Assembly (NCBI GenBank): GCA_026419835.1
Contig: JAOAKQ010000003.1
Span: 59,237-123,236, forward strand
DNA from: Sulfolobales archaeon
GTDB lineage: Archaea > Thermoproteota > Thermoprotei_A > Sulfolobales > NBVN01
Length of the DNA stretch: 64,000 nucleotides
Reading direction: 5' to 3'
Shown here piece after piece: positions 26,994 to 34,874 of this stretch (positions are counted from its first letter, which is position 1; every line of letters starts with the position of its first letter). The notes below the pieces were generated by a model. That model saw only the letters and a list, made by a program, of their open reading frames with translations. It did not search any database and was not told the origin of the DNA. The translations under genes were made by a program, and so were the position numbers.

Positions 26994-28283
26994 TTGAGTT
27001 CAGTAACCGAGGTAGAGCTAGGCGAAGGCCGCATCATAAGGATAACCGGTCCAGCGAAAGTTGATGTAGTTACCGGTAGGATCTTAGCTGTGGGTTCTAA
27101 ATTTCCAGCTGGTTCTTCTCTCGTAATTCACAAATTCAGGTCTTACGGAATTAAAGTACTTACACAATCGAAAGTTAGAATTACTCTCGGTGAGGGAGCT
27201 AAAGTAGAAGAAGCTAGAAACGGTGAGGAAGTAGTTGATGAATGGCTTAGAGTAGTTGAGTACATACTTAGAAAATGTGCGGAGAGACTCTGCAAGATCT
27301 TGGTAGTAGGTCCGCCGGAGTCGGGTAAGTCCACGTTTACAGCCTTCTTAGCGAACTACCTCAGAGAAGCCGGTGTTAGGGTGGGTGTTATAGATGGGGA
27401 TGTCGGTCAGGAAGACATACTGATCCCTACTACGGTAGCTCTAACTGAGGTTACGAAGCCTATTCTATGGCTTAGAGAGCTGGAGCCTCAGCTATTTAAG
27501 TTCGTCGGCTGCATCTCCCCGCAGTACTGCTACCCGGAGAGCATCCTAGCTATTAAGGAGCTGGTCGATGAAGCGGTTAAGCTAGGGTTTAGAGCCATTG
27601 TAGTCAACACGGATGGGTGGGTTGGAACCACGTCCGGTATAGAGCACAAGCTCGCAATTACTAGGTGGATTAAACCCGATATAGTGGTCGTAACAGATAG
27701 GGAAGTCTTTGACTACCTGTCCAAGTGTATTGATGGCTTGGTTGAGGTAGTCTATACTTCAAGACCTACCGTAGCTCGAGAAAGAAGTAGGGAAGAGAGG
27801 CGAGAGCTGAGAACTCAAGCGTATAGAAAGTACTTCAGTAGGGGTAGGATTAGAAGAGTTAAGCTAGGTAGTATAGGCATCTTAAACATTCGAGCGCTTG
27901 CTGGACGAGCTATACCCGCAGACGAGATTAGAAAGCTTCTAGAGATTTCTGATAGCGACTTAAGTAAAGTAGCTTACTCATCTAAGTACGGAGATACCGT
28001 GTTCTTAGTTACTAAAGAACCTGTGGATATATCGTTAAATCAGAATGAGGCTGGAAAGGTCGCCGTACTTAACTTGAGAGATTTAAGAGGAGCTATAGTA
28101 GGATTGTTAGGAGAAAGATTGAGCGATGTAGGTATTGGCGTGATTTTAGATGCGGACTTAGAATCTCAAGAAGTAACCATTTTGACTCCGTGGGATGGTG
28201 CGATTCGCGGACTAGTCGTTGGTAAGGTGAGACTGAGCGAAGATTTTGAAGAAATTGGGAGGGTGTCTAAGTGTATTCTCTGA
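26994..28283 (+). CDS. Polynucleotide 5'-hydroxyl kinase, Clp1/Grc3 family
   Basis: VVGPPESGKSTFTAFLANYL..VGVIDGDVGQEDILIPTTVAL. Confidence 0.88.
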   Translation: MSSVTEVELGEGRIIRITGPAKVDVVTGRILAVGSKFPAGSSLVIHKFRSYGIKVLTQSKVRITLGEGAKVEEARNGEEVVDEWLRVVEYILRKCAERLCKILVVGPPESGKSTFTAFLANYLREAGVRVGVIDGDVGQEDILIPTTVALTEVTKPILWLRELEPQLFKFVGCISPQYCYPESILAIKELVDEAVKLGFRAIVVNTDGWVGTTSGIEHKLAITRWIKPDIVVVTDREVFDYLSKCIDGLVEVVYTSRPTVARERSREERRELRTQAYRKYFSRGRIRRVKLGSIGILNIRALAGRAIPADEIRKLLEISDSDLSKVAYSSKYGDTVFLVTKEPVDISLNQNEAGKVAVLNLRDLRGAIVGLLGERLSDVGIGVILDADLESQEVTILTPWDGAIRGLVVGKVRLSEDFEEIGRVSKCIL

Positions 28284-29560
28284 AGAGAGCGGTGGAGGAA
28301 CAAGCTAGTAGAGGGTATGTGGAGAGAGTTGAGAAAGTACTGAACCCGGAGCTAGAGCCTACGAAGTACATGAAGAAAGCTGACAGAGCTGGATCCACGG
28401 TTGTCTTTAGGGTTAGCAGTTCGGAGATAGAGTGTGTTAGCGGTGTTGTAAATACTAGAAGGAAACTGTATGAGCTCCTTAAGGCCGGTAGTGATGAAGA
28501 AGCCTATACTAAACTTTCAAGCTCTCTTGATAGAAAAAGCGCTAATTCTCGCGAATTGAAGTTTACCGAGCAGTTCGAAGTCTTCAGCAACTCCTTAACA
28601 TCTCTTCCAGCTATAAAGTTCTACAGTATTGATGGAGGTAGATACATAACGTCGTCTATAGTTATAGCGAGAACGCCGGACCTAGATTCCTTCAACGCGT
28701 CCGTACATAGACTCATGGTTTTAGACGACCGCAGTATGGCTATTAGACTAGTTCCTAGGCATCTCTACAGAATATACGAGTTAAATAAGAAAGCCGGTAG
28801 AGATACTGAGGTAGCTATAGTTATTGGAGCTCATCCACTAGTTGAACTAGCTTCATCAATGTCACCACCGTACGGAGTATTTGAGTTAGAGATGGTTGAG
28901 CACCTAGGTGGAGAACCTCTCGAAATCGTCTACACACCGATGTACGGAATTCCAGTTCCAGCATACGCGTCTATCGTAATCGAGGGTAGGATTACTAGGA
29001 GCTTAGCTAGAGAAGGACCTTTCGTAGATATCTTCGTACTCCCAGATAGAGTGCGGGAACAGCCGGTCGTCGTTGTCGATAGAATGTACGTATCTAGAAA
29101 TCGGGAGTACTTCCACGTAATACTTCCTGGTGGTGGAGATCATCTCATACTCATGGGCTTCCCCAGGGAGGCGGCTATATGGGAATCCGTTAGGAGGGTG
29201 GTACCTAGAGTTAGGAAGGTTAGACTGACTAGAGGAGGAGGTATGTGGCTTCACGCCGTAATATCTATCTCAAAGGAAGTCGAAGGCGAGGGTAAGACGG
29301 CTATTATGGCTGCGTTCGCCGCTCACCCAAGTCTAAAGCACGTGGTGGTTGTTGACGAGGATATAGATCCGGATGACCTCGAGGAGGTTGAGTGGGCGAT
29401 AGCTACTAGACTTCAAGCTAGTAGGGGGTTGGTGGTTATTAGAAATGCTAGAGGGTCTACGCTAGACCCTAGCTCGGACGATGGCTTAACGGATAAGGTA
29501 GGTATAGACGCTACAGCACCCCTCGCTCGACGCGATATGTTTAGAAGACCTGAAGAGTAG
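28271..29560 (+). CDS. UbiD-family decarboxylase (candidate anhydromevalonate phosphate decarboxylase)
   Basis: VVIGAHPLVELASSM, VIEGRI, LPGGGDHLILMGFPREAAI, VVVDEDIDPDDLEEVEWAIATR. Confidence 0.85.
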   Translation: MYSLKRAVEEQASRGYVERVEKVLNPELEPTKYMKKADRAGSTVVFRVSSSEIECVSGVVNTRRKLYELLKAGSDEEAYTKLSSSLDRKSANSRELKFTEQFEVFSNSLTSLPAIKFYSIDGGRYITSSIVIARTPDLDSFNASVHRLMVLDDRSMAIRLVPRHLYRIYELNKKAGRDTEVAIVIGAHPLVELASSMSPPYGVFELEMVEHLGGEPLEIVYTPMYGIPVPAYASIVIEGRITRSLAREGPFVDIFVLPDRVREQPVVVVDRMYVSRNREYFHVILPGGGDHLILMGFPREAAIWESVRRVVPRVRKVRLTRGGGMWLHAVISISKEVEGEGKTAIMAAFAAHPSLKHVVVVDEDIDPDDLEEVEWAIATRLQASRGLVVIRNARGSTLDPSSDDGLTDKVGIDATAPLARRDMFRRPEE

Positions 29561-29571
29561 TTGGTGTAGCT

Positions 29572-30729
29572 ATGTATTTGAGTAGAGAAGAGGAGAGAAT
29601 GCTATCTGGTGAGCTTGGTGAGGCAGTTGCTAGAGCCATGGAGCTCTTGGTGAAGATTGGGGAAGCCCTGGGGGCTGAGAGGCTCGTTGAGATAACCCAC
29701 GCGCACATCTCCGGAGTTTCGTACTTCAACATAGGGGACTTCGGGCTGGAGTTTATTGAAGACATGCTGAATACTAGAGCTAGATTCTCCGTATTTACAA
29801 CTGCGAATCCGCACTCAGTTCTAGCTAGCTACGGTGGTAGGGGATTGAGTACTGAGGTTTGTGAAAAGCAGTTGAGGATCGTTAGTGCTTTGAGGAAGAT
29901 GGGTGCTAGGAGCTTCACCTGCGCTCCGTACTACGTGAGAAAGCCATCTATCGGGGAGCACCTAGCTTGGGCTGAAAGTAGCGCCGTTCTCTACGCCAAC
30001 AGCGTGCTTGGCGCGGTAACTAATAGAGAGACGGGCCCCACAGCTCTTCTATCTGGAGTATGTGGTAGAACGTACTTTGGAGAAGCGCATAGAGGTCTAC
30101 CGGCGGAAGTAGAATTCGTAATCGAGGTCGAGAAGCCGGAGGACCCATCAGAAGCTGGAGCTTACGGACTACTAGTTGGGGAGCTTGTTGGAAGGTCTGT
30201 ACCGGTAGTTCGCGGACTATCCCAATACCCAGAGTACTTCCTCAAGGAGTTCCTGGCAGCTTTCGCTACCCACTCCCCGGCGCATCTAGCTATTCTCGAA
30301 GACGTAACGCCGGGCTTCGGTGGAGTGGAAACATCGAGAGCGGAGAGGATATCGCTCACTAAGTCAGACTTATTGAAGATGTATTCAGATATCGGTAGCT
30401 GCAGTTCTCCGCTGTATCTAATTGGATGCCCCCACCTATCTCTCGAAGAATTGGACTACGTGCTGCCTAGAGTTAAAGACGTTAAGAAGGGGGAGCTCTG
30501 GGTAACCATTGGAGAAGGCGTTCCACAACACCTAGCTGCGGAGCGTGTGAGAGGTCTTAAAGTTCTACCTGGAAGTTGTGCTGTAACCGCTAGACTCGAC
30601 CTACTGGGCGTGGACTGCGTGATAACCGACTCGGCTAAGGCGCTGGTATACATACCGAAGCTAGCTGGCGTTAGAGCTTACTTAGTTAGAAGAGAGGTTC
30701 TTCTAGAGATGGTGTCGAGTGGCGAGTGA
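29572..30729 (+). CDS. Aconitase X catalytic subunit (candidate phosphomevalonate dehydratase large subunit)
   Basis: ITHAHISGVSYFNIGDFGLEFIEDM, ESSAVLYANSVLGAVTNRETGPTAL, IGCPHLSLEEL. Confidence 0.88.
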   Translation: MYLSREEERMLSGELGEAVARAMELLVKIGEALGAERLVEITHAHISGVSYFNIGDFGLEFIEDMLNTRARFSVFTTANPHSVLASYGGRGLSTEVCEKQLRIVSALRKMGARSFTCAPYYVRKPSIGEHLAWAESSAVLYANSVLGAVTNRETGPTALLSGVCGRTYFGEAHRGLPAEVEFVIEVEKPEDPSEAGAYGLLVGELVGRSVPVVRGLSQYPEYFLKEFLAAFATHSPAHLAILEDVTPGFGGVETSRAERISLTKSDLLKMYSDIGSCSSPLYLIGCPHLSLEELDYVLPRVKDVKKGELWVTIGEGVPQHLAAERVRGLKVLPGSCAVTARLDLLGVDCVITDSAKALVYIPKLAGVRAYLVRREVLLEMVSSGE

Positions 30730-31717
30730 AGTAAGTCTCCAGGTAATTGCGGGTGGTGCTGAGCGGAAGATCTGTGGTGAACTAGTTGTTTACGGAAAGC
30801 TACTATCTCCGCTGGGAGATATAGATGCATCAACCGGTCGGTTAAGAAGTGGTAGTAGAGTAAGTGGTAAAATCGTGGCTGTGAAAGGCTTCACAGGCAG
30901 TACTGTAGGACCCTACGTACTCTACTCGCTAGCGAAGAGAGGTTTAGCACCTAGGGCGCTAGTAGTGGAAGAAGTTGACGTAAACTCAGTCACGTCGGCC
31001 GTTATATCCGGTATTCCGCTACTTAAAATCGAAAAACTCACCACACTAGAGAAGCTATATAGTAGTGGCACTAGGTACGTCTGCGTAGAAAACGGTAAGC
31101 TCAAGCCTCGCGGAGTTCTGATAGCTATTGAGGGAGTGGATGGAGCCGGTAAGACTACGGTAGCAAAGTACCTACTCGAGGTTTTTAGAAGGTGTGGTTT
31201 TAGAGCGGTGTATACGTACGAGCCGTACTACGACTCTACAAGAGCCGTGTTCGAGTCTGGAGCTATGAAGCTCACACCCGAATCTGAAGCACTTCTGATG
31301 ATTGCCGATAGGTACTCGCACTTCAACTGGGTAGTTAGGGAGGAGCTAGATCTAGGCAGTGTAGTGATTCTAGATAGGTACAAGCACTCAACAATAGCCT
31401 ACCAGGGGGCGGCGGGTCTCTCGATAGACTGGCTTAGAGAAGTGCAGAAGTACCTCCCAGAGCCAGACGTAGGGATATACCTAGACGTAGACCCGGAGGA
31501 AGGACTTAGAAGAAAGAGTGGGAGCGGTACTAGAGCTCTTACGTATTTTGAAGACCTTGAGAGGTTGAGGAGAGCTCGCGAAGTGTACTTAAATATGGTA
31601 GCGAGGGGTGAGTTAATTCAAGTTAACGCTTCACTCGAACTACCGAGAGTTCTCGAAAAAGTTGTTGATCTAGTAGAGGAAAAGCTTGGTTTAGATCTAG
31701 AGAAGTGCGTTCCGTAG
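30719..31717 (+). CDS. Fusion: aconitase-X small subunit (DUF126 / candidate phosphomevalonate dehydratase small subunit) + thymidylate kinase
   Basis: N-term SGKIVAVKGFTGSTVGPYVLYSLAKRGLAP; C-term VLIAIEGVDGAGKTTVAKYL, YTYEPYYDSTR, DRYKHSTIAYQG in one uninterrupted ORF. Confidence 0.85.
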   Translation: MASEVSLQVIAGGAERKICGELVVYGKLLSPLGDIDASTGRLRSGSRVSGKIVAVKGFTGSTVGPYVLYSLAKRGLAPRALVVEEVDVNSVTSAVISGIPLLKIEKLTTLEKLYSSGTRYVCVENGKLKPRGVLIAIEGVDGAGKTTVAKYLLEVFRRCGFRAVYTYEPYYDSTRAVFESGAMKLTPESEALLMIADRYSHFNWVVREELDLGSVVILDRYKHSTIAYQGAAGLSIDWLREVQKYLPEPDVGIYLDVDPEEGLRRKSGSGTRALTYFEDLERLRRAREVYLNMVARGELIQVNASLELPRVLEKVVDLVEEKLGLDLEKCVP

Positions 31718-33130
31718 GCAGTACTCATCAAGAGCGGCGTTCAGTCCTTTAATAACGTACTCGTAGATTTCCTGACTCAGTACTACCGATCGATTAGTTG
31801 CGTACGACCTAAATTCTTCCTGGTCTAGTAGTTCGCACGGCTGACCCCTAGCTCTAGCTATATCTATAGCTAGGTCTACGTACTCTACAGCATTTGGCAC
31901 CACTATCTCGGGCTTTGTGTTGATGTTTACGTATATACCCTTAAGTTCACCACTACCGCTGTAGTAGCTGTGAACTACGTAGGGAACCCCCTCGATTGCG
32001 ATGGTTCTAATGCTATCCCCGACTTCCTTCCTAATTCTGATACCGTCGTAAGTACCGCTACTTCTAACCTTTCTCTCAAGTAATAGCTTGAACTCACTAT
32101 CGTAGTGGAATTCCACTAGATCGGCCGTACCCAGCCTTATGCTTCTACCATCCAGCTTCTTGTGGTTTATCGCTACTTCCTCGAGGTCTTTAATGGTTTT
32201 AGCTATAAACCTCATGGTGATTTTTCTTAGGACTTCTCTATCTACGTACGCTGAAACTTCGTCTAGTAGCTCAGCTACGTCTCTGTAGAGCCCCCTAGAA
32301 GTCTTTATCATGTGGTGGTAGTCTGCCGTTGGCGTGATCGCTCTTCTTACACCATCTAGGTAAATCTTAGAATCGTGAGTTAGGTATATGGCCACGATCT
32401 TCTCGCCTTTAGTGATAGTGGATATTTCTTTAAGACTACCGGCCTTCTCTTCAACGGAGCTCAGCTGGTTTACGAGGTTTTGAATTTCCGCAGCTATAGC
32501 TTCTAAACTAGCTTCGTCAGCATTGCTCCTCCACTTAATACCTACTCCTTTTCTTACGTACTGAGATGAAATAGTCAGCAACTCGGAGATCCTGTTCTTG
32601 TTCTTTAAGTGAGGGCTGAATAGAACTCTAGTTCCTCTCCAAACAACAGCGAAATCACCTACAACTCTAGCTCCCGGTACTAAAACCGTTCGGTCTCCCG
32701 AGTACGTAGGTACTTTGAGAACTGAAGCAGGTAGGAAAGCACCTTCTCTACAGTCTCGATACTCGATTAGTTCAGCAGGTCCGTAGGGTGATTCTACGAG
32801 ACACCTACCGTTTTTCACACCCTTAACTGAGACAACTACAGTAGCGTACAGACCTACCGGCGGGACGTAAGCTACTACAGCTGGAATATTTTCTGTGAGC
32901 GTGTAGGCTACAGCCTCTGCGTGATCTGCGTGCCCAATTACTAGGATATTCGATGCGTCGTCGTTATCCGTTTTTACCGTTACATCCGCCGGTAGACCTC
33001 TATTCTCGGGTACTCCGAGCCTGGTTGCGATAACGTCACTAACATCCACCAACTCGAAGTTTCTCTCGTGAAGTATCTTCGAGACCGCCGTGGAGTAGAT
33101 ACCGCGCACTCTAACTCTAGCACTCAACAC
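31697..33130 (-). CDS. FAU-1 / RNase E/G-like protein with DUF402 domain
   Basis: RNase E/G-like N-term plus C-terminal DUF402 RLGTADLVEFHYDSEFKLLLERKVRSSGTYDGI. Confidence 0.8.
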   Translation of the reverse strand: MLSARVRVRGIYSTAVSKILHERNFELVDVSDVIATRLGVPENRGLPADVTVKTDNDDASNILVIGHADHAEAVAYTLTENIPAVVAYVPPVGLYATVVVSVKGVKNGRCLVESPYGPAELIEYRDCREGAFLPASVLKVPTYSGDRTVLVPGARVVGDFAVVWRGTRVLFSPHLKNKNRISELLTISSQYVRKGVGIKWRSNADEASLEAIAAEIQNLVNQLSSVEEKAGSLKEISTITKGEKIVAIYLTHDSKIYLDGVRRAITPTADYHHMIKTSRGLYRDVAELLDEVSAYVDREVLRKITMRFIAKTIKDLEEVAINHKKLDGRSIRLGTADLVEFHYDSEFKLLLERKVRSSGTYDGIRIRKEVGDSIRTIAIEGVPYVVHSYYSGSGELKGIYVNINTKPEIVVPNAVEYVDLAIDIARARGQPCELLDQEEFRSYATNRSVVLSQEIYEYVIKGLNAALDEYCLRNALL

Positions 33131-33547: not shown

Positions 33548-33811
33548 CTAAATAACTCTTCCTCCCCTAGAGGAGTGAACCGATAGGTCCGAAACCGAAG
33601 ACTTCCTCGCTCTGTAGGGAGATACCTTAATATCTTCGAGCGTAGGCGGTCTCAGCTTCTTTCCGCAGCTGGGACACCGACTACCTATTCTAGCTAGAAG
33701 TTCAGACGGTGTTGGTAGTCCATACGAATCCTGACCTACTTTAAGAAATTCGTATAGAATGTAGCTACAAGAACTACACCTATATATAACTGGCACTAGC
33801 TCCACCATCAC
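33548..33811 (-). CDS. Zinc-ribbon hypothetical protein
   Basis: CSSC...RCPSCGKKLRPP. Confidence 0.55.
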   Translation of the reverse strand: MMVELVPVIYRCSSCSYILYEFLKVGQDSYGLPTPSELLARIGSRCPSCGKKLRPPTLEDIKVSPYRARKSSVSDLSVHSSRGGRVI

Positions 33812-34295: not shown

Positions 34296-34874
34296 TTGGT
34301 AGTTTGGAGGTTGAGGATATTCAAGCTTACTAGGAGGGGGGCGGTGGCGGCACTTGCTCCAGCTGCGGTGGTCCTGTACTTATTTAGCTATACGTATCTA
34401 GGTGCTTCAAGAGGTGTCGCAATCTTTAATTTTCTTTTGAATACCGCTCTAGGTAACTTAGTCTTAAGTTTGGTCGCAGCTTTCTACGCATACAACATAG
34501 CCAAGAGTATTGCTACACCACTGTGTAGTCGGATTACTGAATTAGAGTCACCACTCTTAGAAGACCTACATCTACTCGTACTCGTACCCGCTCTCTCCAC
34601 TACGATCTACCCTGTACTGAGAACTGTCGCCGGAGTTCAGCAGGGCTTTCTCGATCTCTCTTCAGTTCTGCTCACACTAGCTATCTCGTTCCTCATACTG
34701 ATTTCTTATACGGATACGAAGAGAGGTCCGGTCGCAGCTCTAAGCTACGTTAGTGCGATAGTGGTCATATTAGTGGCATTTACTAGGCGTAGAGAAGTTA
34801 GTGAATTCTTCACCGAGCTAGCTAGACTAGTATCTCTCGTTGAGGCACTAATAAGGGAGCTGGGTGTCGTATAG
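34296..34874 (+). CDS. Multi-TM membrane protein
   Basis: 192 aa, about 4-5 hydrophobic segments; first gene of a cluster with DUF4350- and DUF58-like genes. Confidence 0.65.
   Translation: MVVWRLRIFKLTRRGAVAALAPAAVVLYLFSYTYLGASRGVAIFNFLLNTALGNLVLSLVAAFYAYNIAKSIATPLCSRITELESPLLEDLHLLVLVPALSTTIYPVLRTVAGVQQGFLDLSSVLLTLAISFLILISYTDTKRGPVAALSYVSAIVVILVAFTRRREVSEFFTELARLVSLVEALIRELGVV

Follow-up and report, generated by a model that had tools for sequence, protein, structure and literature searches.

A single open reading frame in the window (the whole stretch of DNA that was analyzed, 64,000 nucleotides) very probably encodes a genuine bifunctional protein, produced when two adjacent genes of one operon (clp1-ubiD-acnX-L-acnX-S-tmk) merged. 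To judge from its sequence, the fusion most likely combines a predicted phosphomevalonate dehydratase small subunit with a dTMP kinase, each part retaining its usual job. The window belongs to genome G000 (1.42 Mb, 84% complete), and its relevant features are as follows.

26994..28283, + strand: Clp1-type polynucleotide kinase gene, first of the conserved cluster (Pfam CLP1_P, 9.8e-39)
28271..29560, + strand: UbiD-family decarboxylase (UbiD N, Rift, and C domains, Pfam)
29572..30729, + strand: AcnX large subunit (Pfam AcnX, 340.7 bits; phmmer to 7cnr_A, 6.7e-57)
30719..31717, + strand: fused AcnX small subunit and thymidylate kinase (332 aa, GTG start)
30719..31096, + strand: AcnX swivel (small-subunit) domain, residues ~1-126
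30899-30901, + strand: predicted catalytic general-base serine S61 in GSTVG (alignment to TkAcnX Ser62(S))
31085..31117, + strand: junction VENGKLKPRGV, residues ~123-133
31118..31657, + strand: dTMP kinase domain, residues 134-313 (Pfam, TIGR00041, Foldseek)
31130-31159, + strand: P-loop EGVDGAGKTT, within the dTMP kinase domain

Both domains are complete in one conserved open frame

The fused frame contains no internal stops, and its start overlaps the stop of the AcnX large-subunit gene by 11 nt. Pfam placed AcnX_swivel_put at residues 29-102 (66.1 bits, 2.6e-18) and Thymidylate_kin at residues 137-313 (127.8 bits, 4.9e-37), the gathering cut-off being 27 in each case, and the TIGR00041 dTMP kinase model covered residues 132-314 with 130.6 bits versus an equivalog cut-off of 83.25. 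Among structures in the PDB, the nearest solved relatives of the N-terminal half were TK1248, which is the small subunit of TkAcnX (7cnr_B), and AF0055, while the C-terminal half matched many thymidylate kinases. An AlphaFold2 model of the monomer had a mean pLDDT of 95.8 and a pTM of 0.92, and a Foldseek search with this model again retrieved thymidylate kinases (E ~1e-13). Residues 111-140, which include the junction, were modeled with pLDDT values of 97-98; the last swivel strand (127-130) leads almost directly into the first kinase strand (133-139), and the model suggests how the swivel and kinase domains may be oriented relative to each other. Both domains are thus shown to be complete in the fusion protein.

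The same single-frame fusion was found in all seven genomes of the genus that were searched, at 55-73% identity. The six relatives are uncultured Sulfolobales, Desulfurococcales, or Thermoproteota metagenome-assembled genomes (MAGs) from several differently named projects (SKW299, two S1_Bin_METABAT bins, Bin S11, KUA_Bin18, and GXS.bins.2). The host genus consists of uncultured hot-spring archaea, and the fusion is conserved throughout it. No indel or stop was present at the junction in any of the seven species. The chance that the fused frame is an artefact of assembly, sequencing, or annotation, and that the two genes are actually separate, is negligible. Such an error might be suspected because the sources are MAGs and because the two genes are separate in close families, but seven species-level genomes at this level of divergence, from several projects, are all fused with an indel-free junction, which excludes an assembly error for practical purposes and effectively refutes the artefact; the lack of a nearby in-frame start codon for the kinase core of the window also speaks against it. 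The sequence-only reading, which had placed an AcnX small subunit and a dTMP kinase in one polypeptide, is therefore upheld by the single frame, by the Pfam and TIGR00041 scores above cut-off, and by the occurrence in seven of seven genomes. In comparison to L002, for example, the swivel domain gave dN 0.17 and dS 0.69, and the kinase domain dN 0.14 and dS 1.23 (the analysis covers the two domains, the noisy linker values being left out). Purifying selection acts on both domains, dN being well below dS.

We also considered whether the continuous frame might yield two functional proteins by internal initiation or linker processing, which we regard as unlikely. Across the order the two genes are normally unfused, and internal starts near the kinase core are possible in two of the seven species: L006 carries ATG, TTG, and GTG where the kinase begins, and in L005 a GTG stands 8 codons ahead of that point. 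In the window, however, no in-frame ATG, GTG, or TTG occurs between residue 84 and the kinase core, nor in the 40 codons ahead of that core, which leaves the kinase without an ordinary start codon near its beginning, and L002, L003, L004, and L007 lack a start codon within 25 codons upstream of the core. The junction, moreover, is modeled as ordered with high confidence and is free of indels and stops in every species.

Predicted roles of the dehydratase and kinase halves

An AcnX large subunit and a UbiD-type decarboxylase had been read from the sequence upstream of the fusion, and both identifications were supported, the first by Pfam AcnX and the second by its UbiD domains and by TIGR00148 (318 bits versus a cut-off of 245). 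The 28271..29560 product is a probable anhydromevalonate phosphate decarboxylase. The order ksgA-like (- strand), clp1, ubiD, acnX-L, acnX-S/tmk, DUF402 protein (- strand) is common to fused and unfused relatives, with clp1 upstream at the same position in all of the loci L044-L052. The segment 26994-31717 forms a compact block with overlapping gene ends that is kept in L044-L052, and in it the mevalonate genes are bracketed by an RNA-end kinase and a dTMP kinase. The convergent gene at 31697-33130 (- strand) encodes a 477-aa DUF402/RNase E-G-like protein and overlaps the 3' end of the fusion by 21 nt; it has the same convergent position in most relatives but is displaced downstream by ~0.5 kb in L045 and ~3.8 kb in L046. 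Two small ORFs beyond it (33548-33811, - strand, and 34296-34874, + strand) had no Pfam match and have relatives in neighboring genus genomes.

Alignment of the large subunit to TkAcnX matched C117, C286, and C336 with C110, C283, and C342; in TkAcnX, three large-subunit cysteines bind a [4Fe-4S] cluster (PMC10040528). Residues G48, V49, S50, N53, N79, E135, S136, and S137 aligned to the mevalonate 5-phosphate (MVA5P)-binding residues Gly48, Val49, Ser50, Asn53, Asn79, Glu129, Ser130, and Ser131 of TkAcnX (roles from PMC8184944 and PMC10040528), all of which are conserved. The position of TkAcnX Ala47 is occupied by Ser, and the alignment stops short of Lys361 and Tyr365, a KALVY motif being present in the window large subunit. 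The 29572..30729 product is thus a probable phosphomevalonate dehydratase large subunit. In the fused swivel domain, S61-T62-V63 aligned to Ser62, Thr63, and Val64 of the TkAcnX small subunit (7cnr_B), the roles of which have been described, with Ser62 as the general base (PMC8184944).

Elsewhere in G000 we located a mevalonate kinase (253 bits), an isopentenyl phosphate kinase (IPK; 190 bits, over its cut-off), UbiX (143 bits), and a class-II HMG-CoA reductase (L101:1420-2637, contig C30; TIGR00532, 461 bits). The reductase is of the class-II type, for which NCBIfam uses the name 'degradative' (TIGR00532), and not of the NADP class-I type. The set of the archaeal modified mevalonate route (phosphomevalonate dehydratase, UbiD-type decarboxylase, UbiX, and IPK) is present in G000, and no diphosphomevalonate decarboxylase was found in this 84% complete genome, an absence that is provisional. 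Assignment of the genes to the archaeal phosphomevalonate dehydratase route, already proposed in the sequence-only reading, is supported by the aligned MVA5P residues and three cysteines together with this gene inventory.

Fusion to a partner can in general release a domain from its original function, and the swivel domain could on that ground be imagined to have given up catalysis and merely to regulate or scaffold the kinase. We consider this highly improbable. The GSTVG motif was present in 34 of 34 homologues, GSTVG and SPLGD were both kept in all seven fused sequences, and no unfused or second AcnX small subunit was found in any of the seven genus genomes, among the matches listed; the intact large subunit next door would then be left with no small subunit.

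The kinase half retains EGxDGAGKT, TYEP, ADRY, and DRYxxSTxAYQ in the fused sequences, the third motif reading MIADRY in the window. In none of the seven genus genomes did a thymidylate kinase other than the fusion exceed the cut-off, and no second tmk was found there. Because of this and because the motifs of the unfused relatives are kept, a changed kinase substrate appears unlikely on sequence grounds. The earlier suggestion that the kinase had shifted toward a phosphorylated isoprenoid was accordingly not borne out; of the two genes that it had been proposed to look for in the genome, a second tmk was not found in any of the seven genomes and an IPK was located in G000. We assign a very low probability to a kinase domain that phosphorylates a mevalonate-pathway intermediate: the operon context with UbiD and AcnX is compatible with it, as is the sequence DRY(K/M)(H/Y)ST in the fused kinases versus DRYYYSS in most unfused relatives, but the protein is the only candidate dTMP kinase, its TIGR00041 score is well over the cut-off, a separate IPK exceeds its own cut-off, and the same neighborhood occurs with an ordinary unfused tmk across the order.

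On the preferred reading, in which both halves keep their usual jobs, the N-terminal swivel would still dock on the AcnX large subunit and complete the dehydratase by contributing the general-base serine with which mevalonate 5-phosphate is dehydrated, and the C-terminal domain would serve as the dTMP kinase of the cell. Thymidylate kinases generally dimerize. Should this one do so, two phosphomevalonate dehydratases would be tethered to one kinase dimer, (L.S-Tmk)2. The probable benefit would be that two essential enzymes, already encoded side by side, are co-expressed and co-assembled in fixed stoichiometry; substrate channeling is not expected because the two reactions share no metabolite. 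There is also a slim chance that the fusion is a regulatory device, in which the open/closed movement of the two AcnX subunits (~26 degrees in TkAcnX when MVA5P binds) would reach the kinase by way of the short, ordered linker, or the state of the kinase would be relayed to the dehydratase; membrane-lipid precursor flux and dTTP supply would in that case be tuned together.

Distribution and origin of the fusion

Among the genomes searched, the fusion was confined to the genus. It was not found in the other 207 genomes searched within the order. A wider scan took in 398 genomes drawn from the whole phylum, ~325 of which lie outside the order, and returned no other full-length fusion, which answers the survey of Thermoproteota that had been suggested with the sequence-only reading. 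Several candidates were examined and rejected. Matches in G020-G022 and G025/G027 that resembled independent fusions ran through stops, with 1-2 stops separating the genes; the long tmk frames of G404, G468, and G363 were long overlapping frames with no AcnX fusion; and the tmk matches extended upstream in G233 and G466 had stops inside, with AcnX-S not adjoining.

In the family and order outside the genus, AcnX-S and tmk are separate genes. Homologues with two ORFs, which had been named beforehand as grounds for refuting the fusion, thus do exist, but only outside the genus, so they reveal its origin and do not refute it. Coordinates for both genes were available in 104 genomes, among the matches listed, and all counts are lower bounds. 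The two genes were fused in 7 of these 104; AcnX-S immediately preceded tmk in the same orientation in at least 70, the two were neighbors on opposite strands in at least 6 and 1.3 kb apart in at least 1, and they were apart or on different contigs in at least 20. At the unfused loci inspected in detail, -23 to +63 nt separated the AcnX-S stop from the kinase core, and overlaps were frequent. The fused sequences formed one clade in the kinase tree (99/99) and in the swivel tree (100/99), which makes a single fusion event the simplest history. Since the genes are often in tandem and some overlap, that event was most likely one merger of adjacent operon genes, and it would have taken no more than an alteration in the short stretch that separates them or in which they overlap.

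Outside the order, 20 loci with strong tmk matches were read, a sample picked by kinase similarity and not at random. When 2-3 kb around tmk were read, an AcnX-S frame was present in 9 of the 20; it was directly upstream in 2 of these, further upstream on the same strand in 2, and on the opposite strand in 5. Loci of the same phylum with AcnX-S near tmk on opposite strands include L111, L117, L120, L121, and L122. The association of AcnX-S with tmk is wider than the tandem arrangement.

Two groups differed from this pattern. Family f9, which looks like Sulfolobaceae, had an AcnX-S match in none of its genomes, among the matches listed, as expected given that Sulfolobaceae are known for the eukaryote-type mevalonate route (PMC11052028). 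Genus g8 (L099/L030; G018 and G019) has a distant tmk alone (~33% identity) on a contig other than that of AcnX-S, which suggests that its local tmk was lost and then replaced.

Comparison with known systems

A search of open-access papers, with most subscription journals outside its scope, found no prior description of a thymidylate kinase-DUF126 or thymidylate kinase-mevalonate fusion, and a 2024 survey of archaeal fusions mentions neither thymidylate kinase nor tmk in its main text. The domain architecture appears new; the component enzymes are known and their genes were already neighbors. The fusion joins enzymes of two pathways with no common metabolite, and it locks together a neighborhood, AcnX-S next to tmk, that is found widely across the order and reappears in other parts of Thermoproteota, raising the question of why a dTMP kinase accompanies mevalonate genes. 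With apparently a single copy of both activities per genome, one protein would bear on whether lipid- and DNA-precursor synthesis are physically coupled.

Comparison with Type IIb AcnX, or phosphomevalonate dehydratase (T. kodakarensis TkAcnX, 7CNR/7CNS; A. pernix ApPMDh), reveals the same separate large subunit with aligned cysteines and substrate residues and the same small-subunit swivel with its catalytic serine. The characterized Type IIb enzymes, however, have a stand-alone small subunit (134 aa in the TkAcnX structure entry), whereas here a thymidylate kinase is attached to its C terminus. We therefore file the fusion as a variant of Type IIb AcnX and not as a plain member. Like the thymidylate kinases of T. 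thermophilus (5x7j), A. aeolicus (2pbr), and S. tokodaii (2plr), the kinase half is full-length with the P-loop, EP, ADR, and DRY..S..AYQG motifs; unlike them, it is preceded by an AcnX swivel domain and has no start codon of its own in the window. AcnX proteins with fused small and large subunits (PMC8184944) likewise have the small-subunit domain joined by gene fusion, but there it is linked to its own large subunit, whereas in the protein described here it is linked to an unrelated enzyme and the large subunit remains separate.
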